This document shows positions 16,917-56,595 of a DNA stretch of 64,000 nucleotides, piece by piece. This DNA is from Loxodes magnus. Its lineage: Eukaryota; Ciliophora; Karyorelictea; Loxodida; Loxodidae. The translations under genes and the position numbers were made by a program. How positions within the stretch are numbered: the stretch's first letter is position 1; every line of letters begins with the position of its first letter. The notes under the pieces are model-generated. The model worked only from the letters and a program-made list of their open reading frames with translations. It made no database searches and was not told the origin of the DNA. Location: assembly GCA_946699065.1 (NCBI GenBank), contig CAMPDV010001984.1, forward strand, positions 1 to 64,000, in the 5' to 3' direction.

Positions 16917-17781
16917 TAAATTACTTAAAGCATATAAAAAATGGCAGAAGGTCTCAGGAAGGGTTTTTTTCCAGCTCCATAGAAAAAGGAAAAAAAACCA
17001 GAGACTTCTAATTCTTCTCCTACCACGTCTTCTTTAATAATATAATAATTTTCTTAGGCTCTTTAACCCCCAAATTTAGAAAAATAAAGATAATCTTAAA
17101 TTGAACAAGAAATTAAATCAACAGAAACTGACTAAAGCAAGCGAGACTTTTTACTCCCATAGCCACGATCAAGCAACTACATGAAAAGTGGTAACTAAAA
17201 AATAATGTAGAAATAGAAAAATGATGAATAGCTAATAATAGAATAACTTATGAAATCTATCCGTAACCTATAAGAAGAAGTTTAAATATTAAAGAAAGAA
17301 AACCAAAAATTACTATAGAAAAGTTAAAACAATGAAGAAAGATTAATGAAACAGGAAATCGAAGTGAAACTTTTGGGAGAAAAAAGAATTTAACCTTAAA
17401 CTTTAGCTGAAAATAAAATGGAACTAGAATGCACAAAACCCTTAGAGATAACTCCTCCCAGAAGGATCGTCAAGCTGTGCTACCTGTGCAAATCAAAATT
17501 CCACACATACAAGAGATGCAAGATATATTTGGATAAACAGAGAAGAAACAGTGAAGAGATTTGGAGAGAACTTTCAAGAATTTATGTAGACAAGGATGGA
17601 AGAATATTTAGAAGGAGGCTTTTTCAAGGGAGTGCCAGAACTCCAAAAAAACTGGGAGTCCCGAACTTTTATTTTAAACCTCAAGGAACGAACTCTGGAG
17701 GTATGTATTGAAGGGGTTTAAAATCCCCGGAGATACGAACACTTTAATTTAGTATATTAAATAAATAAATTACTTAAAGCA
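16917..17781 (+). mobile_element. ORF1-only retroelement b (left copy) with 16-bp TSD
   Basis: The insert is 16933-17765 (833 bp), flanked by TAAATTACTTAAAGCA at 16917-16932 and 17766-17781. The right arm and the other LRR copies have an uninterrupted version of this site, so it is a real insertion made after the arms were formed. It contains one intact ORF and ends in ACTTTAATTTAGTATATTA, the same kind of tail as elements d and right b. A long duplication and an AT-rich 3' tail without terminal repeats indicate target-primed (LINE-type) insertion. Confidence 0.85.
16941..17711 (+). CDS. ORF1-like zinc-knuckle protein of element b
   Basis: 256 codons plus TGA, fully open under the ciliate code, with dozens of TAA/TAG Gln codons. 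The order is MAEGLRKGFFPAP, a Ser/Thr/Gln-rich stretch, and a coiled coil at ~105-150 (RNLQEEVQILKKENQKLLQK). A CCHC knuckle follows at ~177-190 (CYLCKSKFHTYKRC, CX2CX4HX4C), then a basic tail (DKQRRNSEEIWREL). CCHC plus coiled coil is the layout of LINE ORF1 RNA-binding proteins and of Gag. No reverse transcriptase follows, so movement would need an enzyme in trans. The extreme C-terminus differs by a frame from the right copy, so the true stop is uncertain. Confidence 0.7.
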
Positions 17782-18620
17782 GTTTATTAAGATACTTTTA
17801 ATATTGTATAACAAAATATAAGTTTTAGATAAGTAGAATAAAGAGAGGAGTATGTTAGTTAGAAATGGAAAATATGAATAGTAATATAGTATAAGATATA
17901 TAATATAAGATATATAGAAATAATAGTATTAAATATGAATAAAAGAAAATTTGATGTGTTTATAGATTCTAACTACTATAAAACTTAACTTATTTTAGTA
18001 TTTACACTAAAGAATACTATTTTAAATAGATTTAAATCTCCTAATTAAAGTAATAAAACTTACTATAGTCTAAACATAAAAGTATACTTAGAAAAAGATT
18101 AAATTAAGAAGCTTTTAAATTTTCTATTAAGAGTTAAATCTTAAATAAAGTAGATTTTATATAAATAAAAGTTTAGATAAACTAACATAAGTAAGTTCCT
18201 ATTAATATATTTAGTTATAATTAACAATTATAAATTAACATAATATCAACTATTTAGACTACGTCATTTTCATCACTATCAACTACTTTAAATACAACAC
18301 TAAGCCTTATAATATCCTAAATCATCATATTATTTTAGTTATATCATACAATCCTAACTTCATTACTATATTTCAGTCTAGCTAAAATTACTATACCATG
18401 CAGTCTATATATTATCACAACTAATAAACTTTCTTTACTTTACAATTTTCTAACTATAAATTAAAATCACTTAAAAAAGAATTGAGCTTGAAAGTTTCTA
18501 CAAATCTATTTAATTAAGATAAAATTTAAGAATTAGAAAACTCAGTTAAATAAACCACTAATAAATTATGATTAAAGCTATAAATGATTTAATGGAGATT
18601 GTGCAATCAAACTTAAATAA
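17782..18620. other. AT-rich stretch, end of left arm
   Basis: Very AT-rich, mirrored at 47720-48560 in the right arm. No convincing gene. Two purely AT motifs repeat near 17890-17925 (ATATAAGATATAT). Confidence 0.5.
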
Positions 18621-18624
18621 TAAC

Positions 18625-19480
18625 TTATTTATTCAATTAAAATTTTTTAGCAGCAATTTCACACCTAACGCTTAGAAAGTGTTTTTAATTTTGATCTCTC
18701 TTCCATTTGCTTTAATCCTTGTCGTCTTTTCCTATAGATCTTGTTAAATCAGCCTCAGTGTATTTTGATTCCCTTCTCTCCTATAAATTCCTCCTTCCCA
18801 ATTGCACAATAACATTTATCTTTCTTTTTTACTTGATTCAGTATTTTTCCTTGAATTAATAAAATTTATTGAATTTCATGTTTAAGTGACCTAGTTAGCA
18901 ACAGAAATCGCATTTTTTTCTAAATTTTAGTCTGCCTCTTGTTCTTATGTATATTTTGTTTCCTCCTATTTCCTCAATCTCCATTTTACAGTTTTAATTA
19001 AATTTCTTTTCCGTTTTTTCGATTTGTTGTTAGTCTGAGATTTTAGTTTCCAGCTATGTATTTTAGCTCTATATCTAAGATTTAGTTTAGCTATTTTACT
19101 CTTGCTAATATTTTGAATTAGCATCAATCTCCCTCTCCTAATTTACCATTCTGAGATCAAGTGTATTAAAGTCCGTGCTAAATTTATTCTGTTAGCTTAA
19201 TATTTTCCTGTCAGAGTTTCTAAACCTCTATCTGGAAGTTCAGCACCACCTTAATGAGCTGTTCCATGATCATCTGTCCAGAAAAATTGAATTCTATGAT
19301 CTCCTGGTGTAAGGCAGACTTCGTCTATTTCTTCGACTTCTCGTCCGAGGTTGGCGTTATTGCATCATGGGTTATTTTTTGCGGCTTTATATTCTCCTCT
19401 AAGTTCTGCTGTCTCCGTATTCCTTCCTTTGGAGTGCAAAATAAACCTTTTCTTAAGTTCGACATCTTTTTATAACTAAA
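18625..19480 (-). mobile_element. ORF1-only retroelement c (decayed), related to element a
   Basis: On - from the ATG at 19465 the peptide starts MSNLRKGLFCTPKEG and continues SKKQTKSALHQEIIEF, GQMIMEQLIKVVLNF. This matches element a (KSALHQEVTEF, GQMSMEQHIRVVLNL) and shares the MxxLRKGxF start with element b. The frame then breaks, and the knuckle at about 18905-18945 (CDFCCQLGHLNM) has lost its last Cys. The 3' end is an ATT-type tail at the inner edge of the left arm. It lies directly beyond the 3' end of the LINE, so one inserted beside or into the tail of the other. Confidence 0.6.
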
Positions 19481-20920
19481 ATAATAATCAAAAATAAAAA
19501 AATGAGATTAAATTAAATTAAATAATGTTCGCCTTTCAGCTTAATAAAATAATTTTTATGATATCACTCTCATTCTGAAACTCTTAGGTCTTCATTATTG
19601 TTTTTATTTGATTTTTTTAGTTTAGTTTCTCTTCTTCTTGTATCTTTGTTCATTCTAAAAATAATTATTTAAGTCTTCTTTATTCAAATGTTACTAATGG
19701 ATTTATTTTACCCTCAATCATTCTTAAAATCAAGTTATTTGTTAATGTTTTTGTTTTATGCTAGAACATGTTTTTTTAATCTTAAGATCAATATCTTCTA
19801 GGATTTATTTATTCTTTTTTGTTTCTTAATTTATTAATATTTGATTATATTCTATCATTTCTTTTAAATTTTTCTCTATTTTTTATTAATTTCATTGTTT
19901 ACTTGAAAATTTTTTTTGTATTTTGTTTAGATTTCTTTAGTATAATTGTTTATGTTAAGATCTTTTATTTATTCATTGTTTATTTCATAGTATTTTTCAA
20001 TTTAATGCTTTTTCTATATTTTGAGTTCTATTTTTAACTCTGTTTGAAAAGTTATTAGAATTTTGTATCTTATCTACTTTTTTCTTTTTCTTGATCATTT
20101 CTGAATTAATCTTATAACTTTTTGTAGCATTTTAAAAATCTTTATGCTGTTGAATCTTCAAATTTACATCAGTTGAAATCTATATTCTATATTTCTTTAA
20201 ATGATGCTTGTGGAATTTTCAAGTATTTTCTTAGGATTTATCTTTGTGCTATTTAGATTTTATTTTTTCATTTTTTTATTCCTAATTGAGTACTATATGG
20301 GATTAATTCCGAGCAATATTCTAATTTTGGCATTATAAATAATCTGAATAAGTTCTTAAAGTTAATTGGTTATGTTTTGTTATAGTTTTTAAAGAATTAG
20401 GATTAGAATATAAATATCTATTATTAAAATTTCTTGAAGAGGTACTCAATCTGAACCTTTTCTTCATTAAGTTAGTTTATTTGATATCCTAGGTATTAAA
20501 TTTGTTATTTTTATTAAATTTTTTTTCCTAATAGAAAAAGTTCGATCTCTTTGTTAGTTGTGTTTCTATTCTTGAGTATTTATATAAATTCGCATTTCTC
20601 CGTGTTAATATTAAGTTTTATTAATTTAAAAATATTTTCAGTTTCGTTTTGTAAAATTTACATATTTTTTGATTATTTAATATTAGTATTAAATCATCTG
20701 CTCAAGCAAGTTTAGTGTGATAAATTTTTTTAATTTTATGCCCTAGTTTTTCATATTTTTTTAAATACCTTAATACTATATCATATTATATTATTGCTAA
20801 TATTGGTCCACTTGAGCTGCCTTGTAAGACTCCATTTACTTACCGAATTTTTCTAGTTATTTCTTCATCAAGATAGAAGTTAATTTATACTTTTTAATAT
20901 GTATCTTTTATTATATTAAT

Positions 20921-22061
<1,141 letters not shown>

Positions 22062-28480: not shown

Positions 28481-28489
28481 TAATTAAAG

Positions 28490-29200
28490 AGAAGCTTTGG
28501 ACTTAAATTTATATAATATAGTAAGAGTGCATTTTTTAAGAGATGGTTATAATTATAGCATTAGTTTAAATAATTTAATAGAAATTTATAAGATAGAAAT
28601 GATTAAAGTGATTTGATAAGAATATTGATTAGGTTGGTCTATATAATTTTTAAGTTAATAGTTCTTAAATTTAATTATTATTCTCGTATTTACTAAATCT
28701 AATAGAATACAAACTAGATAATAGCTAGCATAAACTAATTATATGTTACCAATCTCTAAATAGTATCAATTAATTTTTTTAAGTGTAACTTTAATTTATT
28801 TAAGATATTAATTTCTTATTTAAGAATACTTATATGATAACTACATAAGAATTTTAGACTAAATTACAATAACTTAGTTTCATATTATAACAAGAGATAT
28901 TTTCATTTAAACTTATTAGATATTTGAGCATAATTATAACATCCTTTTAAATTATTTATTACACCTAAACTTGCCATTTATTGCTTTCAAACTATTTATT
29001 TCTCATCAATTCTCTACTAAACTTCTTTATTATATACTCTATCTGTATTCCTTTTTATCGCTTTCATTCTTAAGTGCAATATTTTAAAGATTATCAACTA
29101 AATAATTATATAAAATAATGGTTTTATATCAAAGCTAAATATTTTATTTATAGTTATGCTTTAAATTCATATTTAAATAGTCATTTATTTATATATAACA
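28490..29200 (-). repeat. 3'-flank spacer of LRR unit L4
   Basis: Matches the spacer downstream of L5 (36510-38250, minus element d) and the L1/L8 flanks. It contains an empty version of the site where right element d inserted (near 28880). No gene. Confidence 0.7.
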
Positions 29201-29219
29201 ATTTAAGCATTATTTATTA

Positions 29220-29687: not shown

Positions 29688-29875
29688 TATAATCAAATTT
29701 ATTTATTTATTTATTTATCTCTTTATTCTACTTATTTTATGAACAAGTTATGTAAAATTTATAGTTTATTATTTATAAAAAATATTTTAATAAGCAACTT
29801 TAAGTAATTTTATTTGCTTAGCATAAATTATTTATTAAAATATAAGACTTAATATTTATTGTTATTTACCTTCTT

Positions 29876-31714
29876 TCAAGTTTGATTGCTATCTTCCTCA
29901 ACATTATGATTTATTGTCATCCTTACGAACTTCTATTTAAGTTTATTAGCCCACTATTCGTTTATTGACGTTCCTTCAATATTTAAGTATTTAAGATTTC
30001 TATAAAAAGGATATTTTTATCCCTCTTAATCATAAATTGGAAAGCCTTCCTAAGTAACAGCCTTTGAATCCTAAAGATTTAAAGATTTTAAATGTTTACA
30101 GTTAGTTACTATTTATACTATATCTTTATTATTTAGTTAAATTTCTTGAAGATTTAATTATTTTAATTTGTTTATTTTAACTATTTCATCTATTCAATTC
30201 TCATCTAGCATTGTACTTCATTCCAAGTCTAAACTTTCTAACTCCTTACAGTTTTAACTAATAGAATGTAGAGTTTTATTATTTAATTTTTGCATATCAC
30301 TAAGAGATAATTTAGTTAGTTTTCTACAATTCTCAAAAATATAACATAGAGTTTCATTAGAAAATTATCTAAGATTGCAAATTTATATTTCTTTATAATT
30401 CTATCCATAATCTCCTATTTTCTTCAAAGATACATTAGTAAGTTTAAATAAAGAACTCAATCTAAGAGACTTTAAACTAGGACAATTTTACATTAAAGAA
30501 ATCAGGTGATTATCATTAAAATTATCGCAATCATCAATCTCAATATGTTATAATTTATTATGCTACTTAGAAAATAATTCTTATATTGTTTCTGTTTATA
30601 AGTCTCACTAAATTTTTAAACTACTAAGGTTCAAGTTTTTTAACTTCATTATGAATTATTCGTAAGAATTTTTTATATTATATTAGTTAATTTTGTTTAA
30701 ATTAGGGCATAAGTCAATATACTTATCCATATTCTCATTATAGTTAATGTTTATTTCTTCTAATGAATTTTCTTTTTTTTTCAAATATTGTATTAAAATT
30801 TCTTGATTAATTCCTTCACTAAATATAATTAGTTCCTTTAAATTTAATCCTAAGCAGTAGTCTATTAAAAACTTTCCTGTTATCTGGTTTTAATTTTATT
30901 ATCAAATTTCTAAGGATTATAAATTAGTCAAATTTTACAAAAAACTTAAATTTTCTTCTTAAAGGTTAAAAGCAGTTAAAACTAGTTTTCTTAGGTTTGA
31001 GCATTTTTTCATATATTCTTGGATTATTTTATCTAAATTATTTAGTTTAAGTAAATGAATTTCTTATACTAGTTTATATCCTTTTTTATTTAAATTTAAT
31101 TTTAGTTCTAAGCATTTTTTTATTTATTGAAAGATTCCTTCTGCTTAATTTTGTTCTTATCAATCATAAGTATTAACATAAAAGATTTTAGTATTAGATT
31201 ATAATATTTGTTTGAGAGTTCAGTTAAGCTTGCTTTAAACATAGTCATTATTACTTGAATATTGTTTTATTTCTAACTTTTCAAATTAATACTTAAACTT
31301 ATTTAGATTTTAACTAACTTATTGCAGTCTACCTATGTCTCTATTTTTAAGGAACTAACAAATATGTTGAAGAATATAAGAATTTGAAAATAAAGTTTGT
31401 TTACTACTTTTAAACTGCTTAGTACTTTATTATTATTAAGAAAACTCTTCTTCTTAGTTTAAGTGCTCATTAATTCTCTTCATTGGAAGCGTTATTTCTT
31501 AGTCTTACTACTTTTTTATTGATATTGTTTAATTTATTTGACTCATTTTTTATTTTTAATCTTATGCTAAATTGTTTTGGATTTAGGCTGTTACTTAAGT
31601 TTCTTGGAGGTGTTTATGAGATTCTTCTTATTATTGATTAGAAGAGGACTATTAGTTTGATATATCTAGTGTATAGTTTTAGTTACTAGTTGATTAATCA
31701 GTCCCACTTTACAT
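29876..31714 (-). CDS. F-box/LRR protein, copy L4
   Basis: ATG at 31714-31712 to the consensus terminal TGA at 29878-29876 is exactly 613 codons. The C-terminus ends NVEEDSNQT before TGA, the family consensus. It has the same domain order as L1. TGA is present at both family-wide codons, at the Asp site, and after EI (where L3 has a TAA Gln codon). I checked motif blocks and total length, not every codon. It is not part of the palindrome. It lies in direct orientation with L5, so it arose by a separate duplication. Confidence 0.55.
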
Positions 31715-32026
31715 TTTATTATAATTTTATTTTATCAGACTATTTATACTTAGATTAATAATAACGGCTATATTTATAAATAAAACTTAAGATTTAAATA
31801 AGCATTATCATATTTAAGTAACTTAATTAAATTTACTTTTTCAATTAAATAAAAGAACTAAATTAAATTAAAAGCGTAAATGGTTTATTTATCTTATAGC
31901 TATTCTTCTTAATAAGCTTAATATAAATGCTTTCTTAATATTTATTAGAGAGCTAATTAATTAATATTCCTTTAGGAAAATGAATTTTAAGTCATGCTTA
32001 TTTTAAAATTTATGAATATAAATGCT
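31715..32026. promoter_or_regulatory. Upstream region of L4
   Basis: Conserved with the upstream regions of L3, L5 and L6 (ATG-proximal ~130 bp, then AAAAGCGTAAATGG). Interrupted by right element b about 310 bp upstream of the gene. Confidence 0.35.
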
Positions 32027-32875
32027 TAGAGAAATATGATAATAATAATAATAATAATATACTAAATTAAAGTGTTCGTATCTCTGGGAATTCTAAACCC
32101 CTTCAATACATACCTCAAAGTTCGTTTCTTGATGTTTAAAATAAAAGTTCGGTCTCCCAGTTTTTTTGGAGTTCTGTCACTCCATTGAAAAAGCCTCCTT
32201 CTAAATATTCTTCCATCCTTGTCTACATAAATTTTTGACAGTTCTCTCCAAATCTCTTCACTGTTTCTTCTCTGTTTATCCAAATATATCTTGCATCTCT
32301 TGTATGTGTGGAATCTTGATTAGCACAGTTTTATGATCCTTCTGGGAGGAGTTATCTCTATGGAATTTATGCATTCTAGTTCCATTTAATTTTCAGCTAA
32401 GGTTTAAGGTTAAATTCTTTTTTTCACAAAAGTTTCACTTCGATTTCCTGTTTCATTAATCTTTCTTCATTGTTTTAACTTTTCTATAATAATTTTTGGT
32501 TTTCTTTCTTTAATATTTAAACTTCTTCTTATAGGATAGATTTCATAAGTTATTCTATTATTAGCTATTCATTATTTTTCTATTTCTACATTATTTTTTA
32601 GTTACCACTTTTCATGTAGTTGCTTGATCGTGGCTATGGGAGTATTAAGTCTCGCTTGCTTTAGTCAGTTTCTGTTGATTTGATTTCTGATTCAATTTAA
32701 GATTATCTTTAGTTTTCAAAATTTGGGGGTTAAAGAGTCTAAGAAAATTATTATGTTATTAAAGAAGACATGGTAGAAGAAGAATTAGAAGTCTCTGATT
32801 TTCTTTCCTTTTTCTATGGAGCTGAAAAAAAGCCGTTCTTGAGACCTTCTGCCATTTTATTATTAGAGAAATTAG
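32027..32875 (-). mobile_element. ORF1-only retroelement b (right copy)
   Basis: A - copy of element b: ATG at 32855, the same coiled coil, a changed knuckle region, and DKQRRNSEEIWREL at about 32240-32283. The 3' tail at 32041 is TATATTATTATT-type. The imperfect duplication around TTAGAGAAAT (32025 and 32864) is seen unbroken at 40700 and 50775, so the insertion is real. It has more damage than the left copy; its C-terminal frame (LRYVLKGFRIPRDTN) has no TGA before the tail. Different target sites mean two independent insertions. Confidence 0.75.
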
Positions 32876-37777: not shown

Positions 37778-38258
37778 GATATATTTTCATTTAAACTTAA
37801 TATTTAAAGTATAATTAGACTATCCTTTTAAATTATTTATTAACATAAACTTGTCATTTATTGTTTCCAAACTATTCTTTTCTTATCAATTCTCTACTAA
37901 ACTTCTTTATTATATAATCTAGCTGTTTTTCTTTTTATCTTTTTCAATCTTAGTGCAATATTTTAAAGATTATCAACTAAATAATTATATAAAATAATGC
38001 TTTAATATCAAAAGCTAAATAGTTTATTTATTATTATGCTTTACAATTCATATTTCAATTTCCATTTATTTATATATAAAAATTGAACCATTACTTATTA
38101 TCTCTTTATTCTACTTATTTTATGAACAAATTATGTAAAATTTATAGTTTATTATATATAAAAAATATCTTAATAAGCAACTTTAAGTAATTTTATTTGT
38201 TTAACATAAATTATTTATTAAAATATAAAATTTAATATTTATTGTTATTTACTTTCTT
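37778..38258 (-). repeat. 3' spacer of LRR unit L5, part 2
   Basis: Continuation of the spacer; matches 28890-29200 and 60230-60710. No gene. Confidence 0.6.
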
Positions 38259-40091: not shown

Positions 40092-40350
40092 TTTATTATA
40101 ATTTTTAATTTTATCAGACTATTTATACTTAGATTAACAATAACGGCTATATTTATAAATAAAACTTAAGGTTTAAATAAGCATTATCATATTTAAGTAA
40201 CTTAATTAAATTTACTTTTTCAATTAAATAAAAGAACTAAATTAAATTAAAAGCGTAAATGGTTTATTTATCTTATAGCTATTCTTTATAATAAGCTTAA
40301 TATAAATACTTTCTTAATATTTATTAGAGAGCTAATTTAATTACTTAAAA
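40092..40350. promoter_or_regulatory. Upstream region of L5
   Basis: Same conserved upstream sequence as before L3 and L6. The next GC-rich island is inserted into it. Confidence 0.35.
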
Positions 40351-40640
40351 CTTTGATTAGAGTGCGCGTAGCCTGTTAATGATGCGCAGCACTATAAGAA
40401 GTCAATTTTAAAGTCTTTAAATTCGCGATAATCCCTTTGAATCTTCTCTTCTAAATGTGGGCAAGGTTTCAGTTCCAATTCTTCAAAAGCACGGTACGCC
40501 AACAGGCGATTACAGGTAATTTCCAACCCATGATAAAGAGATTAGTCTGTTACAATACTTAGAAGGATTTCTGAGTTAGTTCATCCTTGGGGATTCTTCT
40601 CGTAACTTTTAGAGGCAAGGTTCACCCTATTTAAATTAAA
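40350..40640 (-). repeat. GC-rich coding-like island with terminal hairpin
   Basis: On - the stretch 40640 to 40395 reads LEITCNRLLAYRAFEELEL and CPHLEEKIQRDYREFKDF, then reaches the hairpin at 40392-40360 (GTGCTGCGCATCATTAACAG, then GCTACGCGCAC). It is absent from the same place upstream of L3 and L6, so it was inserted here. The peptide differs from the other islands, but the hairpin is shared. Probably the 3' end of a mobile element of unknown family. Confidence 0.5.
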
Positions 40641-41058
40641 TTAATATTCCTTCAGAAAAATTAAATTTTAAGTCAAATTTATCTTAACATTATGAATATA
40701 AATGCTTAGAGAAATATGATATTCTTGTATATCTTTATTTATAATTCCATAGGTATTACAGTTCAGTCATATTCATATATAGTTTATAAATAATAGTCTC
40801 CTATAAAAATTATAGACCAGAAACGACTTGCAAGTCTTTCTAAAAAAATAAGATAAACCTTGCTTTTATACATTATTTAATAAATTTTCCTTATGAAACT
40901 TCTGAAATTTATTATAGATTGAAACTTTTAGCTTAGTTTAACTAGATTGTTCTACTAAGTTAGTTGCTTAGTATATGTTTTATTATATTTTACTTATTTA
41001 GTTATCCTATTAGCATTCTTCTTTGTTGTCTTCTACTTTAAACAATTTATGGAATTAA

Positions 41059-42060
41059 TCAATCACTAATCATACTCATATCTATGAAAAAATTTTATTT
41101 TAGTAACTAGTAAAATATGTTTCTTTAGTTTACTTAAGCCAGAAATTAATTTTCTTCCTAGTCTAAATAAAATTTGGTCGACTAATAATCAGATTATTTG
41201 TATATGCTTCGAAACTAAGTATTAATATGTGAAAAAGGAAATTTACTACAGATAAAGTATTTATTGCTTATATTTTTTAAAATTTTTTGTCTATTAAATT
41301 AATAAATTAATACTCCTATTTTAGTTTTACTATTTCATCTTCATACTTCTAATTAGAAAGTTTTATGATATTTTTAGAGTTTTAAAATGGAATAAACTTA
41401 TGATAATACTAATTTAATAAAAGCTTATTTAGTTAAGTTAGTTCTTTAGAGAGGAAAATTTGTGAAATGCTTTATTATATTTAAGCATGCGATTTCTTTA
41501 ATTTTAATTACTGATTTTTTATTCCTTTTTAGTTAACTTTTTTGTTTCTTTTTCTAATTAAAAATCTTAAGTGCACTAAATGAGTTTCTTAGCATTATGA
41601 AGAAATAAAATCTGAATTTTAATATTTGATTCAAATGTAGAAATATTAATATCTTAGAAGCTTTCTCAATCTACCTTTGTCTCAGATTAGCCAACATCCA
41701 CCATTAATTTTTCCTTTTATCTTATTTCCTGTCTAAAACTAACTGCAACTCCTAAACTGACATAATTTTTTAAAATCAGGTAACTTTTATTCTTACTGAT
41801 TATTGACGTTCCCATAGTATGTCAATGACTTAGAAGAGTTTAGACAATTTATCTTTCTTTCTTATAAAAATAATTCTTCTTGATATAGCTAAAGCTTTGG
41901 AATAAATTATATAATACTCCTATATTCCATTTCTCAAGTCCTATAACTATATACTTAAACTTATTTCCCAGCTATTAATCTCATTAACTAATTTGTTTTT
42001 TCTAGCCTTTTGTAGAATAAGCACTCTAGCTATAAACGCTATGATTGTTTAAGGTATTAA
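41059..42060 (-). pseudogene. Diverged copy of gene X upstream of L5
   Basis: On - the block IPQTIIAFIARVLILQK, KLVNEINSWE and IQLQDLRNGIQE matches gene X of the left arm with mostly amino-acid-conservative changes. The C-terminal EENQFLAQVNQ and IDMSMISD before TGA also match. The frame changes between the blocks (around the GGGAACGTCAATAAT site), so this copy is broken. Its protein-level similarity is the best evidence that X once coded. Confidence 0.45.
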
Positions 42061-42129
42061 ATACTTTCACTTATCTATTTCTTAGTAAATCATAGTTAGT
42101 ATATAAAGCTTCTTTATAGAACTATTGAA

Positions 42130-43180
42130 GTATAAACATTAGTTGAGAGTTTATATCCAACTTGAGTGTTTCTTCATTCTTTAGAACTTCTTTTCGTTCT
42201 AATATGAAATATATTCAATTATATTTATCAGCTATGATAGTGATAATACATAATCATACTCTAAGCTTTATAGATTTTAATTCATCTTTTATTCTTAAGA
42301 AGTGTAAGGATAGATGAAGAATAAACTTAGATAAAAACTATCTTAATTAGCTTATAGTGAATTACGAAGAATCTTGCACAGATATGGAAATTAGCTCTGA
42401 AATTCTTATTTTAGCATATAAAAGCTACTAGTAAAAATACTTAAGGTATTTAAATCTCCTTGTATGAACTTTGTTAATAACATGTTATTTCATTTTCCGT
42501 AACTAAGATATCAACTAGTTAACTAATTTAAGCTCTTTTTTTGTTTATCTATTTGATTCTGTCTAAACCTTTATATGCTTCATTCTATTGAGAATTTTAT
42601 AGAAGAAAAGATAGAAAATAACTTTATTAAGAAACAAGTTTACGCTATAGAGGTATGGATTACTGCACAGATATTCAGAGTAACTTGAAGGAATTTTGAA
42701 ATTTATCGAAATAAAATATAATAAATTTAACAAGGAATATAGGCAAGAAATAATCTCAATCTTTAAGTTATTTACAAATTAAAAGCAATTGCATTTTAGT
42801 AAAAACATATAAAATCAAAGTTGTAGGTAGAATAAAAAATATTTAGAAGCGATAAAAATGAAAAAAATATAAGAAATCAAATGATAAAAGAAATTTGCAA
42901 ACTTAAACTTTCATAAAATAAAGTATCTTAATTAAATAAGAAGATTCAAACAATAATTCTTTGATTAAAGGGAATTATTATTATATATAATATTAACGCA
43001 ATTTTTATTATTTAAACTTACTCATTATAAAGTTAATTTAATTTATATCTAATTACAAAAGATTGTTCCTAGTAAATTAGAAAGCATTAAAAAAGTAAAA
43101 AAATATAAGAATTTTGATGTTTAGTAATAGCATAACTATATTTATAAACTAATTAATTAATTATAAACTTAATTCAATTT
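42130..43180. other. AT-rich spacer
   Basis: No convincing gene. The direct similarity to 50500-52170 ends near 42130. Confidence 0.5.
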
Positions 43181-43189
43181 CTCTTTCAA

Positions 43190-43445
43190 CCTACTGGAAA
43201 CCCGTTCTAGCTAAAAGCCAAGTCACTCTCTTGATGCACATAACATGGATATCTTGTTGTTTTATTCAACAAACTTCGACCAGGGAGTTCCATAACTATG
43301 GCCGACAGCCGCTAGCAAGAGTGAATAACCAGAAAATGTTTTCACTTGCTAAGATTGACTTTAACCAGGAACATTCTCAATGACAGGATAGGAAGTTGAC
43401 CATATCCATAAAACTAGAATTTTTGATCAGAGAATCAACTAAGCT
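43190..43445. other. GC-rich island, unassigned
   Basis: Base composition jumps above the flanks. Both strands stay open with few TGAs: + gives NMDILLFYSTNFDQGVPQLW, - gives a similar length. No copy was seen elsewhere in the window, and no RNA fold is evident. Probably a relic exon or element fragment. Confidence 0.3.
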
Positions 43446-43799
43446 TCTGGTATTTTTTTAATTATCAATATTTATAAATTAATCTTAAAATTCTTAATAA
43501 TAATAAATATAAACATTTTATCAGTCCTCTAACTATATCAGATAGAATTTTTCAAGATCCAAGCTTTCTTAAGTAATAAGATTAGTCACTTTCATTAGCA
43601 ATTATTGAAATAAAGATTAGAATTTTTAATTTGGAAAATGAAATATCAAAAAATTAATTAATTTTTCAAGCAGCATTAAAAAAGAATTTGAAAAAGGAGT
43701 AAATTGAGCATTTGAAGGAATTTAATTTAATTTAAAAATGTACCAATTCTAAATCTAAAACTTTTATAATTTTTATTATATATAAAAAAAGAAGAAAAA

Positions 43800-44530
43800 A
43801 TGGAATATTTCTTGTCATCAGTCTCTTCTTAAAAGATTTCATCTTAATCAAGCAACAAATATTAAAAAATACTTTAAGAACTCAGAGTCATGCAACAAGA
43901 AAATTTTAACTTATTTAGACAAGTATAAGAACTAGAAAAGAAAACGGAATTTCTATTGATCAATGTGTAAGATAAAAAATTGGAAATAATCAAGAAGAAA
44001 ATGTTAAAATAGAATAATTAGAAAATAAATTCAATCAATTCTCAGAATTGACGGAAAGCATACTCCTATCAAATCTTTCGATGAATGATATAATGGACAT
44101 AAATTAGTTTATCCCAAAAACTTATATTCCCTAACGAAAAATTATGACATGTTGATATTGCAAGAGCCTGGGCATAAAGTAAGAAACTGCTTCCAATTTA
44201 GACTTAGGAAAAGAGAATCATAGAAAATCAATGGAAAAATATTTTCAGAATCTACTGCAATTTTGAAGGAAAACTTTATAGAAAGAAAATACTCCAACTT
44301 AATAGAGAAGCTCCGCATATTTAGCATGCAGTTAATGAGTTCAATAAGAAATGAATGGGAATTGACCTATCGGAAACCATTAGAAAAAACAAATTAAAAA
44401 TCATGAGAACTTATGATAGACTTGACCCAGACAAATTCTAAATTTCTTTTTATTAACATAAAAGCTATTAATTCGTGGAAAACCAAATAAAGGTGACTCC
44501 ACGTTAATGAATTATTATTATTATATTATT
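43800..44530 (+). mobile_element. ORF1-only retroelement e, second ORF1 type
   Basis: The ATG at 43800 opens 236 codons to TGA at 44508-44510 without frameshift but with four internal TGAs. The N-terminal half is coiled coil (ENFNLFRQVQELEKKTEF). The C-terminal part (IRKNKLKIMRTYDRLDPDKF, then HKSYQFVENQIKV) resembles the C-terminal domain pattern of L1-type ORF1 proteins, with no CCHC knuckle. An ATTATTATTATTATATT tail follows directly. So at least two kinds of ORF1-only element share ATT tails here. Confidence 0.5.
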
Positions 44531-45059
44531 TCTGTCCTAAAAAATTCGCCTTCTATAAAGGAAATTTGATAATCTCTTATAAAAATATTGAGTCATATGT
44601 AATAAATGTTTTGCTTAAGAGATGTTTAAATAAAGCTTATATAAAAAATAAAAAAAAGTGTAAAATTATTAAAAATAAAATCTCGTTATTCATAAAATCT
44701 TTATAAGCTAATGAAATAGTTTAATTTTTTTAAAGTGAATCTAGTATTTTTAAATTAAATAAATCTATCAATATATTAATATAACTACAATTTTTCTATA
44801 TATGAAGATTATAGTGAATTAGCAAATGGCAAAATAATATCAACATTTTTCCTCAAGAATGAGATAAATTGTCTTATTAAGCTTGCAATGAAGCCAGAAA
44901 AATCAGGCAAACATTTAAGCTCATATACCACAAAAGTAAAATATATAAATAGATAAGATTATTAGGGAGTAAAAAGAATTGTTCTACTTTATTAATGAAA
45001 GAGTTAAAGATTAAATGATAATAGAAGATGTTTAATTTATAAATTAAAAAGAAAGCAAT
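44531..45059. other. AT-rich spacer
   Basis: Nothing recognised. Confidence 0.5.
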
Positions 45060-45450
45060 CCTTGATATTATTGCAATTAAAATATTTATTCAAAAGGATC
45101 TAAAAGTTTTTTGTTAAAATTAATATCTAAAATAGAAAAATAAAGGGTTTAAAAAGAAGATAATTTAAAAATAATATGAATTAAAAAAAGCTTTACTCAA
45201 TAATTAAGGAGATGCAAAGAGCTCAAAGTAAATCATGAAGAGAACTGGATAAACTTTTTAATAATTAACAAAGATATTTAAACTTCCTATTTAACCTTTG
45301 GTCAATGAAAGTAATGAAATTAGAATAAAACAATAAAGAACAATAAAAAAGACTAAAAATTTCTTTATTTATATATTAAAAATAAAAATAAATGTTTTAT
45401 TTTTATTTATTCAAATTTTAATTAATATTTCAATAAAATTAAGTTTTATT
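45060..45450 (+). repeat. Direct repeat, copy 2 (with 27500-27900)
   Basis: See 27500-27900; same orientation, diverged. Confidence 0.65.
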
Positions 45451-45497
45451 AAATATTTTATTCTATATATAAATAATAAATCAATCAAGATTATTAT

Positions 45498-45870
45498 ACA
45501 GCGCCTAGTACCTCGATGGCGCGCAGATCTTTCAATATTAATATAAAAAGAATCTTCTCATACTTCTTACTTTCATTCTAGTAGTCCAATGAGTCACGTC
45601 AGCTTTTCCAAATAGGGAATTTGCGTATTAAAGATTAATCTATATCTTTGAACCAAATCTTTCAGTCTTCTTGAATAAGATTCTAATAAGAATTAATAAT
45701 TAAGGATATTAGATGGCTTGGTAGTAAACGTATATACTCCTAGAGAAAACCTTGGGTAAATTAGACATGTCTCTTCCGAGCTTGTTCACCCTTCCCCGTG
45801 GTGGCATCTAGTAGGAGATTACTCGCAATGCAGCATACTGTGCCAGATTAGGTACTAGTTTCCTGACTGT
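45498..45870 (-). repeat. R-family repeat, copy R3, with terminal hairpin
   Basis: On - the element starts at ~45870, passes VNKLGRDMSNLPKVF, LIQED followed by TGA, and IRKFPIWKS, and ends in the shared hairpin 45530-45498 (CTGCGCGCCATCGAGG, then TACTAGGCGC), then TATAATAATC. The TGA in the LIQED block aligns with a TGG Trp codon in R2 and a TAA codon in R1. It links the R family to the hairpin family. Confidence 0.55.
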
Positions 45871-47538
45871 AGCCGTCATTATTATTTTTATAGATAAAAA
45901 AAGAAAGTTGAATTTTGAATAAAATATATGAAAACTGAAGATATTAATAAAAATATTAATTTAAAAAGTTCTACAATAATAATTTATACCAAATAGATAA
46001 ATTTTACTTAATAATTACTTGAATAAACAATTTATCACATATAAGTTAATTATGTAAATTAATTCTGAATAATTCTTATCAAATATTAAAGAAATACAAT
46101 TCATTTCATAAGAAGATTATTATAAGAGCGAGTGTAGTCATTAACATTTCAATTTAAGTGATAGCAAATACGTAGTTTATTTTTATAATTTTCTAAATTA
46201 TTTGAAGTTAGATTTTTATAAAAGTAATATGATTTAATATCTCTAAAATCTTTTTAACTTAATAATTATTTAGAATATTAAAAATCCATATCTATATAAT
46301 ATAACATTAGCTATCATTCAAAAAGGATTTAAAAATAAACAGCATAAAGGCAAAATAAATTAAAATATTAATTTTGAGTAAAAATAGTTAAACTTTTCTA
46401 CTTTATAATTTTACTTTTTTTAATTATTTTATTTCTAATTTTTTAATTTTCTAGAATCATTCTAAAGCATACTTCAAATATATGCAAATAAAGATATTGG
46501 ATCTTAAAATAATTTTTAAAAAGCTGCTTAATAAAATGCTTATTATTTAATTAAAAAATATTTATTAAATATCGAAAATATTTAAAATTAAAGTGAAAAG
46601 CATTTTTAGATTTATATTTATAATTTATATATTTTTATTTAAAAAGTTTATTTTAAATGTTGAACAAAAGAAAATAAAAAATGGGAATTGATCTTAATTT
46701 TATTAGATAGAAGTCTGAAAGTTTTTCTTAAAATAATGATAGTTTTATAATAAAATTATAAATTTATTTAATTTTTATATTTATATATTTATAAAAATGA
46801 TTTTATATATATTCAGTAATTATAATGTTATTTAAAAATATACTTAATAATAAATTAAATTAATTGCTTTTAATTTACAAAGTGTTCTAAGAACTAATTA
46901 TTTCAACTAAATCTCTTATTAATTTATTGTTTCTATTTTCATATTTTTAATTATGTTCTCTACATCATTTTTTAATTATAAGCTAAGAATTTTTAATTTT
47001 ATAATTTTGAATCTAATTGAAATGAATAATATTATAAAAAGTTAGGTAAGTAGTTAAGTAATGATATTTACTTTTATCCCTATTAATTTTAAGCATCTTA
47101 GTAATTAATAAATTAATTAAATATTCATTTTCTCAATTCTATATTTTATAGTCTAATTTCTTAAGTTTATATTAATCAATTCAAACTATTCTTATGAAGA
47201 TTCAAATTCTTTAGATATTTAAAAATACTAATGAAGTGCATCTTGTAAAATATAAACTTTAATATCATTTTCATAAATAAAGTACAATTTTAATTAGAAA
47301 TCTTTGCAAATGCTATCTTTTTTAATTTATTATATCAAATATAAACATTTTATATAATTACTTAGTTAAATCCAAAATTTAACAATAATCAAAATAATAT
47401 CAAAATAAATCAACATCAAATTATTAAAATATCACTTTTTCCATTTATAAAGTCAATACAATCAAGATTTAAGCAAAATTAATTAATAATTATTAAAATA
47501 TTACTTTTATTTATTACGTTTCTATTAGACTTTCTTAG
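45871..47538. other. AT-rich spacer
   Basis: No gene recognised. Confidence 0.5.
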
Positions 47539-47711
47539 TCAATTAGACAAATTAAAAAAAAATGGAATATTTCGTTAGGATAATTCAGAACCTTTTGCTT
47601 TCAAAACTTTAAAATTTTTGGTACCTCCAACGTTTTTTTGTTCTATAACTTCAGCAGAATCAGTACGTAAATTATTTCTTTTTATTACTCGTTTAATTAT
47701 CAAATTTTTTT
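47539..47711 (-). CDS. Possible small coding segment at the arm boundary
   Basis: On -, a stretch richer in GC reads LRTDSAEVIEQKNVGGTKNF and KVLKAKGSELSQRN before TGA at 47541-47539. The upstream part runs into the ATT-rich arm end. It has no counterpart in the left arm, where element c begins. Family unknown; possibly a terminal exon or the end of a mobile element. Confidence 0.25.
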
Positions 47712-48624
47712 ATTATTATTTAAGTTTGATTGTTCAATCTCCATTGTCCTGCGTATAGCTTTAATAATAATGTTTTTATTATTTATTTAATTAAGATTTA
47801 TAATTCCTCATATTTTATCTTCTTTTCTTAAAAAAAATGTGAAAGCTTTTAAGCTCAATTCAGTTTTCAGTTATTTTAATATAGAGTTAGTAAATTATAA
47901 AATTAAGACAGTTTATTAGTCGTGATAATATGTAGACTGCATGGTATAGTAATTTTAGCTAGACTGAAATATAGTAATGAAGTTAGGATTGTATGATATA
48001 ACTAAAATAATATGATGATTTAGGATATTATAAGGCTTAGTGTTGTATTTAAAGTAGTTGATAGTGATGAAAATGATGTAGTCTAAATAGTTGATATTAT
48101 GTTAATTTATAATTGTTAATTATAACTAAATATATTAATAGGAACTTACTTATGTTAGTTTATCTAAACTTTTATTTATATAGAATCTACTTTATTTAAG
48201 ATTTAACTCTTAATAGAAAATTTAAAAGCTTCTTAATTTAATCTTTTTCTAAGTATACTTTTATGTTTAGACTATAGTAAGTTTTATTACTTTAATTAGG
48301 AGATTTAAATCTATTTAAAATAGTATTCTTTAGTGTAAATACTAAAATAAGTTGAGCTTTATAGTAGTTAGAATCTATAAACACATTAAATTTACTTTTA
48401 TTCATATTTAATACTATTATTTCTATATATCTTATACTATATTATTATTCATATTTTCCATTTGTAACTAGCATACTCCTCTCTTTATTCTACTTATCTA
48501 AAACTTATATTTTGTTATACAATATTAAAATTATCTTAATAAACTGCTTTAAGTAATTTTATTTGTTTATCATAAATTATTTATTGAAATATAAAATTAA
48601 ATATTTATTGTTATTTACTTTCTT

Positions 48625-50460
48625 TCAAGTTTGATCACTATCTTCCTCAACATTGTGGAGAATTGTCATCCTTACGAACTTCTATTTAAGTTAATTAGCC
48701 CACTATTAGCTTATTTACGTTCCTCTAATATCTAAATATTTAAGTTTTCTATAAAAAGGATATTCTTATCCCTCTTAATCATAAATTGGAAAGCCTTCCT
48801 ATGTAACAGCCTTTGAATTATAAAGATTTAAGATTTTTAAATGTTTACAGTTAGTTACTATTTATACTATATCTTTATTATTTAGTTAAGTTTTATAAAA
48901 TTTTAATTATTTTAATTTGTTTATTTTAACTATTTCATCTATTCAATTTTCATCTAACATCTAGCAATATGCCAATTCTAAGCTTTCTAACTCTTAACTG
49001 TTTTAACTAATAGATTGTAAAGTCTTATTTTTTATTTTTTTCATTTAACTAAGAGATAATTTAGTTAGTTTTCTACAATTCTCAAAAATATAACATAGAG
49101 TTTCATTAGTTAGTTAGCTAACATAATTAAAGGATATTTCTTCATAATTCTATCCATAATCTCCTATTTTCTTCAAAGATGTATTAGTAAGTTCACATAA
49201 TAAAATCAGCCTAAGAAACTTTAAATTAGGACAGTTTTACATTAAAGATATCAGGTGATTATCATTAAAATTATCGCAATTATAAATCTCAATATGCTAT
49301 AAATTATTATGTTACTTAGAAAATAATTCTTATATTGTTTCTGCTTATATGTCTCACTAAATTTTTAAACTACTAAGGTTCAAGTTTTTTAGCTTCAATA
49401 TTAATTAGTTGTAAGAAATTTCTAATTCATAAGGGTCAATTTTATTTAAATTAGCGCAAAAATCAATATACTTATCCATATTCTCATTATAGTTAATGTT
49501 TATTTCTTCTAATGAGTTTCCTTTTTATTTCAAGTATTCTAATAAAATTTCTTGATTAATTCCATTGCTAAATAATTTTAGTTCCTTTAAATTCAATCCT
49601 TAGCAGTAGTCTATTAAAAACTTTCCTGTTATCGATTCCTAATTTATGTCTTAGACTTCCAAAGATTATAAGCAAGTCAAGTTTTACAAAAAACTTAAAT
49701 TTTCTTCTTAAAGGTTAAAAACAGTTAAAACTAGTTTTCTTAGGTTTGAGCATTTTGTCATATATTCTTAAAAGGCTTTATCTAAATTATTTAGTCCAAT
49801 TAAATGAATTTCTTATACTAGTTTATATCCTTTTTTATCTAGATTCATTTTCAGCTATAAGCATTTTGTTATTTCTTGAAAGATTTCTTCTGTTTAATTT
49901 TTTTCAGCAAAATAAGTATCAATATACAAGATTTTAGTATTAGATTATAATATTTGTTTAAGAGTTCAGTTAAGCTTGCTTTAAACATAGTCTTTATTAC
50001 TTGAATATTGTTTTATTTCTAACTTTTCAAATTAATACTTAAACTTATTTAGAAATTAACTAACCTATTGCAGTCTACTTTTGTCTCTATTTTTAAGGAA
50101 CTAACAAATATTTTGAAGAATATAAGAATTAGAAAATAAAGTTTATTTATTACTTTTAAACTGCTCAGTGCTTTATTATTATTAAGAAAACTCTTTTTCT
50201 TAGTTTAAGTGCTCATTAATTCTCTTCAATGGAAGCGTTATTTCTTAATCTTTTTAGTCTTCTTTAGATATTGTTTAATTTATTTAACTAATTTTTTATT
50301 TTTAGTCTTAAGTTAAATCCTTTTATATTTGTGTTACTACTTAAGTTTCTTGGAGGTGTTTATTAGATTCTTCTTATTATTGATTAGAAGAGGACTATTA
50401 GTTTGATATATCTAGTGTATAGTTTTAGTTACTAGTTGATTAATCAGTCCCACTTTACAT
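48625..50460 (-). CDS. F-box/LRR protein, copy L6
   Basis: 612 codons from ATG (50460-50458) to the consensus TGA (48627-48625), a multiple of three; the C-terminus ends EEDSDQT. Motifs as in L3, its mirror, but it keeps the consensus C-terminus that L3 has lost. TGA is at both family-wide sites and at the Asp site; the residue before CQM is Tyr, as in L3. The region from 49600 to 49750 differs more from L3 than its neighbourhood does (it resembles L1/L8 and L5), suggesting gene conversion among copies. Confidence 0.55.
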
Positions 50461-51129
50461 TTTATTATAATTTTTAATTTTATCAGACTATTTATACTTA
50501 GATTAACAATAACGGCTATATTTATAAATAAAACTTAAGGTTTAAATAAGCATTATCATATTTAAGTAACTTAATTAAATTTACTTTTTCAATTAAATAA
50601 AAGAACTAAATTAAATTAAAAGCGTAAATGGTTTATTTATCTTATAGCTATTCTTTATAATAAGCTTAATATAAATATTTTCTTAATTTTTATTAGAAAG
50701 CTATTTAATTAATATTCCTTTAGGAAAATGAAAATTTGAAGTCAAACTTAATTTTAAAATTTATGAATATAAATGCTTAGAGAAATTAGATATCCTTGTA
50801 TATCTTTATTTATAATTCCATATGTATTTCAGTGCAGTTATGCTGATATATAGTGCATACATAATAGTCTCCTATAAAAATTATAGACCAGAAACGGCTT
50901 GCAAGTCTTTCTAAAAAAATAAGATAAACCTTGCTTTTATACATTTTTTAATAAATTTTGTTCATGAAACTTCTGAAAATTATTATAGATTGAAACTTTC
51001 AGCTTAGCTTTACTATATTATTCTACTAAGTTAGTTGCTTTGTATATGCTTTATTATTCTTTAATATTTAGTTATCCTATTAGCATTCTTCTTTGCTGAC
51101 CTCTACTTTAAACCATTTTATATAATTAG
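50461..51129. promoter_or_regulatory. X-L6 intergenic region (mirror of 14384-15016)
   Basis: Same conserved upstream sequence as L3, including the GC-richer block at 50820-50910. Confidence 0.35.
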
Positions 51130-54120: not shown

Positions 54121-54124
54121 ACTC

Positions 54125-54410
54125 ACCTAGGTGCCACCACGAAGAAGAGTGGACAGATTCGGAAGAGATAAATCTATCTTGCCAGAGGATTCTTGCTAAC
54201 AGTATAAATGTTTGACTGACGGACTATCTAATGTTCTTAAATATTAATTCTTATTCAAGAAGACTAAAATATTTGGTTCAAAGTTTGAGAATAGTCTTTA
54301 ATAAGTAGATTCTCAATTTGGAAAAGCTGAAGTGACTCATTAGGCGGGTAGAACGAAAGGCAGAAGTATGAGAAGACTTTTGAATATTAATTTTTAAAGA
54401 GATATAAACT
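54125..54410 (+). repeat. R-family repeat, copy R1 (right)
   Basis: Mirror of 11120-11400. On + it reads VPPRRRVDRFGRDKS, then blocks related to R2 and R3. Confidence 0.5.
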
Positions 54411-54837
54411 AGATGGTACTTCTATATAATAAAAGTAATTAATTATTTGGTTATTAATAAAAAGTATTTTTTATTTATTTGAGATATTTATTTTCTAGAA
54501 TAAATAATAACTAAAGAACAGAAATATTATTTCTTAAATATGCTGCAAATATAGATTCAACTAAAGTTAGTTGAGCCAACATTTTAAAAATTTTACTAGT
54601 CATTTATAAATTTGAATCTGCTTACAATTGTTGAACTAATAGCTTCATATTCTTTTTAAAGTATTTAAAATTTGAAATAGCTTTAAAGAAACTTAGTTTA
54701 AGTTATTAAATTAATAACGAGAAAACAATTTTAATTAAGATGAATTAATCTTAAGAAAGAATGCTCTAATTAAATTAATTAGCTATTAATGATTTATTAA
54801 ACATAAAATGTAATATACTGTTTCTAATTGTTATTTA

Positions 54838-55256
54838 TCATAAATTGCTTAATTAAATCTTTTATTATTAAGTATTTTTTATTTTAGATATAAAACTCTA
54901 CGATCCTTTGAAAGTGCCTTTCATAGATTTGCCACTGTTTGATCTTTTATAAAATGCGAGACTAAAACTACTTGTCCTTTTATCTTTTCTGTTTATTTTA
55001 GTTTCTATTTTAATCTTCTACTTCTATACAATATCATTAGAAATTTTAATCTAAAAGATATTCAAATCATGCTTCAATACAAGAACCACTTTTAATTTGT
55101 TTGATACATAATCATTTTCAAAATTTCATCCTAGTACTATTTGAGTATCTGATATCATTTAGAATTCACTTAATATAGCAGATGATCAAGCAGTAAATTT
55201 CGTCTTAAATCAGAATATTAAAAGCTTAAAGATCCAAAATACGGACTCCTCCATTT
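54838..55256 (-). pseudogene. Coding-like frame with three TGAs (right copy)
   Basis: Mirror of 10259-10675; starts MEESVFWIFK at about 55256. The TGA sites that I checked are shared with the left copy. Confidence 0.25.
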
Positions 55257-55626
55257 AATTACTCTTATAAATATTTGAAAGAAATGTGTCTAAAATAAAT
55301 AGAATATATTTAATTAATTTACTATCATTTAAAAATTGATAATTCTAAAATATTTATGATCTAATTTTTTGGTAAAGATTATTTAGTATTTATTTAACAT
55401 GAATGCTTTAAATTTATTATATTAAAAATAATATACCAATTCAAATTATTTATTATAGTCAAAGTATCAGACTCGCAACTCTTTTATCAAATATCAGACT
55501 AAAACTACTTATTCTTTATTTCCAGTAGTGCTAATAGTTTATGTCCAGAGTCCTCTATCTGAGTTTGTGGACTTTAATAAAGAGAACACTAGATTTGGTA
55601 AAAACAATCCATATAAAAATTAAGGG

Positions 55627-56595
55627 TATAATAATAAATATGGATAAATAAAATGCTGGAAGCTTTCAAATCAGGCTTCTATACCACCTCTTAAGCCAAA
55701 AAGGAAGGGAGGAAGCAGGAAACCAAGACTTAATAATCTTCTCTATCTTAACCCTAATCTATATTGAACTAACTACCTGGAATTTAACAACAAGAGCGGA
55801 AGCAAGCATTTAAGACAGCCCATATAGATACTCCAATCTCAGCTGAGAAACCGAGAAAGCAGATGAAATCTGCTCTCCACCAGGAGGTGACGGAATTCAA
55901 TCCTTCTGGCCAGATGAGCATGGAATAGCACATCAGAGTAGTGCTAAACCTCCAGGAAGAGGTTAGGAAACTCAAGAAAGACAATGACGAATTAATGGAA
56001 AAGCTTGACCTAGCTGAAGGAATAGAGTCAAGATTTATGTCTTAAGAACGAGAACTGAATGCTTTCTGGAACATATCGTAGGATTAAACTAGCTAATCCC
56101 AGAATTAGCATTAAAATCAGACTGAATTTGACAACAGACTTGAGAGATTAGAAGAGAAACTAAATGAGCAGAAAGGCGACCCAATGATGATTGAAGAAAT
56201 TGACAAGAACTTGAAGAAGACCAAACCAATCAAGATTGTAAAAAGATGCTATTATTGCAATTCAGAGCAACACTTGTGAAGAAAATGCAAGGAATTCCTG
56301 AGTTTCAAGAACCAATACTGGGGAATATAGAGAAAGCAATAAGCACAGAAAAGAAAGGCTAGACAATTGCAGCAGAGGAGAATAAAAGAAAGACTATGAA
56401 TGACGGAAATTAGAACCATTTATAAGAAGAAATTTTCGCGGAACGCAAGATGGAACTAGCCATAACAAGATCAAGTGGATGTGAAATGAGAAACTTTTAA
56501 ACTTTTTGATTTAATCCCGAAGCAATCTGGCGATTGGCGGGAAGAGGTGAAATTCCTCAAAGATGGCCTAACTTAATCTATATAATAATAAATAT
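55627..56595 (+). mobile_element. ORF1-only retroelement a (right copy) with 15-bp TSD
   Basis: The insert is 55642-56580 (939 bp) between TATAATAATAAATAT at 55627-55641 and 56581-56595. The ORF from ATG 55653 reads MLEAFKSGFYTTSQ, SALHQEVTEFNPSGQMSMEQ, a coiled coil (LNLQEEVRKLKKDNDELMEK) and a CCHC knuckle (CYYCNSEQHL, TGA, RKC), then a basic tail. A second TGA follows KERL, and a third after QVDVK may be the real stop. There is no frameshift over about 278 codons. Substitutions between the two copies are partly synonymous. Shared by both arms, so older than the inverted duplication. Confidence 0.8.

Follow-up and report, generated by a model that had tools for sequence, protein, structure and literature searches.

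Retrotransposons of the LINE (long interspersed nuclear element) type that carry only the first open reading frame (ORF1) are a known kind, represented by HAL1, HeT-A and TRE5-A.2. HAL1 of mammals is a deletion derivative of L1 that keeps the L1 ORF1 and is without ORF2, and HeT-A of Drosophila retrotransposes with a borrowed reverse transcriptase (RT). Short interspersed nuclear elements (SINEs) with LINE-like 3' tails are short, occur in many copies with target-site duplications (TSDs), and end in a 3' hairpin and tail that a LINE RT presumably recognises. In the available text of its source, HeT-A is described as encoding a Gag-like protein only, without RT, and as attaching to chromosome ends only (PMC3776773). 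That on TRE5-A.2 of Dictyostelium discoideum describes an element in which the whole ORF2 is missing and which is mobilised in trans by the ORF2 of TRE5-A.1 (PMC5391098). Here we analysed a 64,000-nucleotide stretch of the ciliate Loxodes magnus (the window; positions 1 to 64,000 of contig CAMPDV010001984.1, hereafter C1984) and a group of short elements in it, termed half-LINEs, which are very probably non-autonomous retrotransposons without long terminal repeats (non-LTR) whose only gene codes for an ORF1-type RNA-binding protein and which use LINE machinery in trans.

A sequence-only reading of the window had described elements lettered a to e as mobile units of ~0.8-1.1 kb coding only for a coiled-coil and CCHC protein, and our analysis confirmed that they are real and mobile. 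In the follow-up b was named E1, d E2 and a E3; the assignment of c and e is not certain, one of them probably being E5. The genome searched was the L. magnus assembly of 705,730,643 bases in 7843 contigs, which is probably the somatic (macronuclear) genome, its size agreeing with the 706 Mbp given for the published macronuclear assembly; canonical eliminated sequences were not found in this species, according to the available part of the genome paper (PMC11441545). The germline setting assumed earlier is therefore doubtful, and the elements are probably not restricted to the germline.

E1 insertions in the window and in the genome

Two E1 copies lie in the window, with the following features.

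16933-17765, plus strand: E1-left (left b), 16917-17781 with its 16-bp TSD (16917-16932 and 17766-17781)
16941-17711, plus strand: ORF1-like gene of E1-left, ATG at 16941, 256 codons, intact, TAA/TAG read as Q
17478-17519, plus strand: zinc knuckle of E1-left, CYLCKSKFHTYKRC, within the coiled-coil ORF1-like protein
17707-17758, plus strand: 3' hairpin of E1-left (GAA, 4-bp stem, 8-nucleotide loop) with the final stretch up to the tail
48545-48559, minus strand: empty E1-left site on the right arm of the palindrome (locus L004), from alignment of paralogous loci
32862-32036, minus strand: E1-right (right b), 32026-32872 with its repeats, an older copy with frame damage and an ATT tail

E1-left consists of an 8-nucleotide (nt) leader, an open frame that is intact over 256 codons as had been read, a stop, 47 nt with the hairpin, and an AAAT tail. 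Its site is empty in all six paralogous loci L003-L008, where the flanks are joined by about one copy of the repeat, and a locus on another contig (L002, on C1015) carries the insertion. The direct repeat of E1-right is 10 bp only. Contig C1015 holds a near-identical copy of window positions 16398-20019 and, at L039 8486-9217, a second occurrence of the E1-right insertion.

Further copies, which the sequence-only reading had proposed to seek, proved numerous. A DNA search of the genome gave 1422 first-look E1 candidates, and all of the best 40, which were scored, are essentially full length at ~100% identity. Thirty copies were fetched; they are the top of the candidates, so shorter copies may exist, and they represent 28 distinct sites (L010/L014 and L012/L018 are same-site pairs). 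In every one of the 30, 818 nt separate the ATG from the tail and the 256-codon frame is open; 14 distinct sequences occur among them, the commonest in 14 copies. E1 is a very young family, and its spread was recent and multi-copy.

Direct repeats of at least 12 nt (12-21 bp) bracket 27 of the 28 sites, the exception being L029 with 7 nt; among control pairs of flanks taken from different copies, 22 of 756 share such a repeat. With L029 omitted, the consensus ends of E1 could be defined as a 5' end 3-14 nt before the ATG (5-12 nt at 24 of 27 sites) and a 3' hairpin followed by an AAAT or ATT tail. The earlier description of the tails as ATT-type stands for E2, E1-right and three of the 27 E1 sites, but tails at the other 24 are AAAT-type, beginning AAA. 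At 26 of 27 sites the first four bases of the repeat are all A or T (expectation from the composition of the flanks, 0.37); picking the longest match beside an A/T tail inflates this figure. The insertions are internal, with TSDs and empty sites, and are not restricted to chromosome ends; among the 30 E1 loci (3.8 kb each), ARAGORN found a tRNA gene in one. LINE-like fragments with 24-48% identity occur in the flanks of the copies at L016, L020, L011 and L012/L018 (one insertion site), none of them inside the TSDs, and the matches in L023, L029 and L038 to the LINE of the window (LINE-W, below) are the E2 insert of that query.

Because of the TSDs, the variable short-repeat tail, the A/T-rich target starts and the empty sites, it is well supported that these ORF1-only, LINE-like elements were inserted by target-primed reverse transcription. 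Units of this size could also be 5'-truncated LINEs or fragments without an identity of their own, and the available text of the genome paper does report more than 30,000 LINE repeats in L. magnus, mostly incomplete (PMC11441545). Truncation, however, would vary in length, whereas ATG-to-tail length is constant and the ORF intact in 30 E1 copies; the units comprise an ORF1 that begins at its start codon, and a 3' end, with no 3' part of ORF2; and E2 and E3 are bracketed by TSDs, with empty sites for E2-right and E5. For E1, the 5' ends fixed just before the ATG at many sites and bracketed by TSDs exclude truncation, which was rejected for the fetched copies on their constant ends, and as an account of the units in general it is hardly credible.

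Related families, their protein and their 3' ends

The other members of the group, and the palindrome that contains some of them, are located as follows.

20935-22048, plus strand: E2-left (left d), 20922-22061 with its 13-bp TSD, ORF from 20967
21778-22050, plus strand: ATT tract of 91 units (99% matches), the tail of E2-left
37761-36924, minus strand: E2-right (right d), 36908-37777 with its 16-bp TSD, short ATT tail
within ~60181-60270, 5261-5350 and 28856-28930, no strand assigned: unoccupied paralogous sites of E2-right, from window alignments
55642-56580, plus strand: right-arm copy of E3 (a), 55627-56595 with its 15-bp TSD, ORF from 55653
in the ORF from 55653, plus strand: zinc knuckle of the right-arm E3, CYYCNSEQHLWRKC, with TGA read as W
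9871-8934, minus strand: left-arm copy of E3, 8919-9886 with TSDs, the same insertion and the same TSD as in the right arm
19478-18624, minus strand: E5, 18615-19487 with its repeats, E3-related, knuckle degenerate, shortly after the 3' end of LINE-W
52-198, plus strand: E3-like ORF fragment at the contig start (E 3e-6)
1509-16932 (left arm) and 64000-48545 (right arm), no strand assigned: inverted palindrome of 15.4 kb, 97.8% identical

The two E2 insertions are independent events, and E2-left sits inside the RT of a LINE. Their tails comprise 91 ATT units (left) and ~5 (right), and their leaders, 32 nt (left) and 15 nt (right), are longer than those of E1. The TSD lengths of 14-16 bp given earlier hold for left b (16), a (15) and right d (16), but left d has 13 bp. 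Likewise, a TSD is present on both palindrome arms for a, yet its two copies are one insertion duplicated by the palindrome, because they lie on both arms with an identical 15-bp TSD; two independent insertions were rejected. Unoccupied sites elsewhere in the window, already seen in the sequence-only reading, were found again for left b (48559-48545) and right d (the three sites above), and E5 has empty sites too. The E5 repeat is 9 bp exact, or longer with one mismatch; the element is present in L002, L005, L006 and L008 and absent from L003, L004 and L007, and in the E5-free loci the flank beyond the site aligns at 65-70% only.

More relatives were found in L005, L015, L017, L021, L023, L029, L032, L038, L039 (two) and L041. 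As these turned up in loci fetched for other purposes, half-LINEs are a common repeat in this genome. The E2 hairpin pattern has 1674 exact sites in the genome, and a reversed control pattern has none.

The half-LINE protein has a coiled coil followed by a CX2CX4HX4C knuckle, which is the layout of CCHC-type LINE ORF1 proteins. Six members of the E2 and E3 groups are 22-31% identical to the E1 protein (31% for the E3 ORF1) and have 12 invariant positions in common with it. Knuckle residues C180, C183 and H188 are invariant in the seven sequences, and the final C is lost in L032. The best structure model of the E1 protein, built with seven sequences, has a mean predicted local distance difference test (pLDDT) score of 63.4; it contains one long helix (84-150), most of which is modelled with confidence, as is the region of the knuckle. 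The E2 and E3 frames make sense only with TGA as W, and the available text of the genome paper states that UGA can code W in L. magnus away from the mRNA end (PMC11441545). The RT genes scored in the genome search also contain several in-frame TGA codons (mostly 6-9) as well as TAA/TAG. In the E2 group (20967-21779 and relatives), no clear TGA stop precedes the tail when TGA is read as W.

Among six E2-group pairs, the ratio of nonsynonymous to synonymous substitution rates (dN/dS) between subfamilies could be computed for four, at 0.144, 0.157, 0.176 and 0.181 (the other two are saturated), and is well measured only for E2-left versus L023 (0.144; dS 0.32). In contrast, it is 0.91 between the two palindromic E3 copies and 1.7 between E1-left and the older E1 copy (100 codons, few changes), values that look as expected for copies no longer coding. 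Between E2 subfamilies, then, the ORF is under purifying selection; it is maintained while the elements propagate and decays after insertion. One alignment (A1), in which the rows for E5, L041 and L021 are partly in the wrong frame, was used only for the C-terminal match of E1 and E2.

The 3' end of E1 and of the E2 group consists of GAA, a hairpin (4-bp stem, 8-nt loop) and then the ATT or AAAT tail. The stem is GGGG/CCCC in E1 (with one G-U pair in E1-right) and CTGG/CCAG in the E2 group, and E3 has a GAGG/CCTC stem with a 7-nt loop, so that the first two stem pairs differ on both sides between families; GAA is replaced by TAC in L021 and by AAC in L038. Stem pairs were counted at fixed spacing, as MAFFT shifted the stems of E1 and E2 by one position against each other. 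By a fixed-spacing script, 2 of the 63,981 positions on the plus strand of the window fit the E1/E2 form, and a scan of both strands with a variable loop and a required outer stem returned only the four E1 and E2 copies. The 3' ends of E1, E2 and E3 match one another, with 0-1 of 200 shuffles as good (E1 versus E3, 0 of 200).

These ends also bear on whether the elements are processed retrocopies of a host CCHC gene family, with one or a few transcribed source genes that LINE machinery copied passively. The 3-14 nt leader and the 47 nt after the E1 stop resemble host mRNAs, whose median 3' untranslated region (UTR) is given as 41 bp in the available text (PMC11441545), and the copies have no obvious upstream promoter. 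However, the tails are AAAT or ATT repeats rather than poly(A), the 3' hairpin is common to E1, E2 and E3, and there are several multi-copy families, unlike a single host gene. We regard such an origin as quite improbable.

LINEs, the search for a partner and other window features

No RT is encoded by the elements, as had been noted, but endonuclease and RT are both present in a LINE of the window, into whose RT E2-left is inserted.

~26750-19508, minus strand: LINE-W, with its own CCHC ORF1, endonuclease, and RT motifs flanking E2-left
26750-25563, minus strand: ORF1 of LINE-W, CIFCGQVGHKFDFC, a CCHC protein unlike the half-LINE ORF1
~24010-23342, minus strand: endonuclease of LINE-W (PF14529, E 7e-11)
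on either side of the E2-left insert, minus strand: RT motifs of LINE-W, DVEKMFDTI before and GVLQGSSSGP / WADD after, read from the translation

If 26750-25563 had been counted among c and e, that assignment falls, as it is the LINE-W ORF1 and no half-LINE. This ORF1, used as a query (E4), has no significant match in the window other than itself, and its structure model, made without relatives, has a mean pLDDT of 47.9. The 3' end of LINE-W lies near 19508-19525, where the alignment to L005, L006 and L008 stops. A Pfam scan of LINE-W in shorter pieces gave the endonuclease and no RT family.

The genome contains many LINE genes: the searches yielded 3403 candidates for RT and 2075 for endonuclease, of which 150 were scored in each case. 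The LINE sample was small and comprised only top-scoring copies, and the 3' ends compared were those of LINE-W, of A, g2 and g6 (RT-selected) and of B and C (endonuclease-selected; C from one copy). Eleven half-LINE ends were aligned with these six, and the 66 alignments were scored against dinucleotide shuffles. The E3-like end of L039 versus LINE-C had 0 of 500 shuffles as good, in low-complexity sequence, followed by E2 versus LINE-B and E1 versus g6 (2 of 500 each), E3 versus g2 and L032 versus g6 (4 of 500 each) and L041 versus LINE-W (9 of 500). By these scores the likeness between half-LINE and LINE ends appears somewhat above chance, with no single partner indicated, and the match to the tail of a full LINE that the sequence-only reading had proposed to look for was not convincingly found in the six LINE types sampled. 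An autonomous LINE with a half-LINE ORF1 was not found among the sampled LINEs either. By eye, none of 100 listed E2-hairpin places (of 1674) has an RT or endonuclease on its own strand in the 7 kb upstream, a check of little power that used only the 150 scored candidates of each search.

Several results weigh against half-LINEs as ORF1-type elements served by LINEs in trans. No Pfam family reached its cut-off in any of the seven protein members, and a profile search of the PDB gave no significant match (best E 0.12; nucleocapsid knuckles 0.62-0.99). Three of the four low dN/dS values rest on near-saturated dS. The hairpin is not universal in the superfamily, since the E3-related ends of L032, L015, L039 and L041 have different hairpins by eye. 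Among the six sampled LINE types no 3' end matches, and the half-LINE hairpin was not found in them by eye or by alignment.

The origin of the elements is a separate matter, compatible with trans-mobilisation. Each half-LINE may descend, as in HAL1, by loss of ORF2 from an autonomous LINE of its own that had this ORF1 and 3' end; such parents would now be extinct, rare or unsampled. The architecture fits, and there are two weak resemblances in the ends: the E3-like end and LINE-C share a TTAA-type sequence before the flank, and E2 and LINE-B share a terminal motif. But the ORF1 of LINE-W differs, the six LINE 3' ends (a small sample) are without the hairpin, and the half-LINE ends are alike, as E1 and E3 show, despite 31% ORF1 identity. 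We consider this origin possible, though doubtful. Rather unlikely, in our estimate, is that half-LINEs form an old, independent 'Gag-only' superfamily with its own ORF1 type and, in E1-E3, its own hairpin, living beside several RT-bearing LINE clades, and are not products of recent deletion. On that reading, the half-LINE ORF1 protein and the LINE ORF2 protein could even form a two-component system in which each serves the other.

In three places a LINE 3' end is followed, ~45-110 nt further along that strand, by an ORF1-like start: L042 ~3654-3786 and L080 ~360-421 (both in reverse-strand coordinates) and window 19508-19464 (E5). The first start, MASKKQQN, is covered for only 8 codons, and the second, MSPKKQ..., extends over 110 residues with likeness judged by eye; chance, target preference or linked transcription may explain them. 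RT genes also occur in tandem arrays with a constant ~2.5-kb spacing on contigs C5131 and C20.

Elsewhere in the window, a 2-kb repeat occurs in eight copies (2814-4754, 6163-8125, 14830-16930, 29707-31963, 38091-40343, 48494-50792, 57389-59351 and 60584-62695). The minus strand of the copy at 48494-50792 matches a leucine-rich repeat (LRR) family (PF24758, E 1.6e-10, 41.5 bits, cut-off 27), and the repeat is perhaps an expanded gene family. An Rfam scan of the window gave no matches at the gathering score, and a Pfam scan of the plus strand of 40200-48600 gave nothing useful.

Proposed mobilisation and relation to described elements

For half-LINEs mobilised in trans, the copies' 5' ends suggest that the RNA would begin a few nt before the ATG and be translated. 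The protein would oligomerise through its coiled coil, bind RNA by its zinc knuckle and preferentially chaperone its own transcript; such action mainly on its own RNA is suggested because the encoded protein is conserved. A LINE endonuclease and RT supplied in trans would then nick an A/T-rich site, and the RT may recognise the 3' hairpin and copy the RNA by target-primed reverse transcription, which would leave TSDs and a slipped AAAT or ATT tail.

As in HeT-A and TRE5-A.2, half-LINEs are complete ORF1-type elements without RT or endonuclease, and they have TSDs and a 3' tail. They differ from this known kind in their ORF1 type, very short leader and family diversity, and in that no partner was found in the sample. 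HeT-A similarly codes for a Gag-like protein and no RT but is confined to chromosome ends, whereas half-LINEs insert internally, with TSDs and AAAT/ATT tails. TRE5-A.2 is likewise an ORF1-only non-LTR element, but the available text derives it from a known autonomous element and describes modular UTRs and targeting to tRNA genes (PMC5391098), whereas only one of 30 E1 loci has a tRNA gene, the leader is very short, and there are several divergent families. The likeness to HAL1 proposed earlier stands in that ORF1 is kept and ORF2 absent. It remains an analogy, as half-LINEs have a coiled coil and CCHC knuckle in 0.8-1.1 kb and no parent among the sampled LINEs, and no L1 ORF1 family was among the listed Pfam matches of the seven members. 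From SINEs they differ by encoding a conserved protein, where SINEs encode none.

Judging from titles and the beginnings of abstracts, none of the papers listed in the literature searches describes such elements in ciliates. The available text of the L. magnus genome paper mentions LINEs and unclassified repeats and no ORF1-only elements (PMC11441545). The same source gives 757,000 unclassified repeat copies in the macronuclear genome (PMC11441545), and half-LINEs may help to name part of them. Most non-autonomous retroelements, such as SINEs, lose all coding capacity. ORF1-only elements that are under selection and have a high, apparently recent copy number show that it may pay a parasite of LINEs to package its own RNA. 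With Loxodes, ciliates would join the known cases, here with several divergent families existing side by side, and would offer a natural test of the cis role of the ORF1 protein and of 3'-end recognition by a LINE RT.

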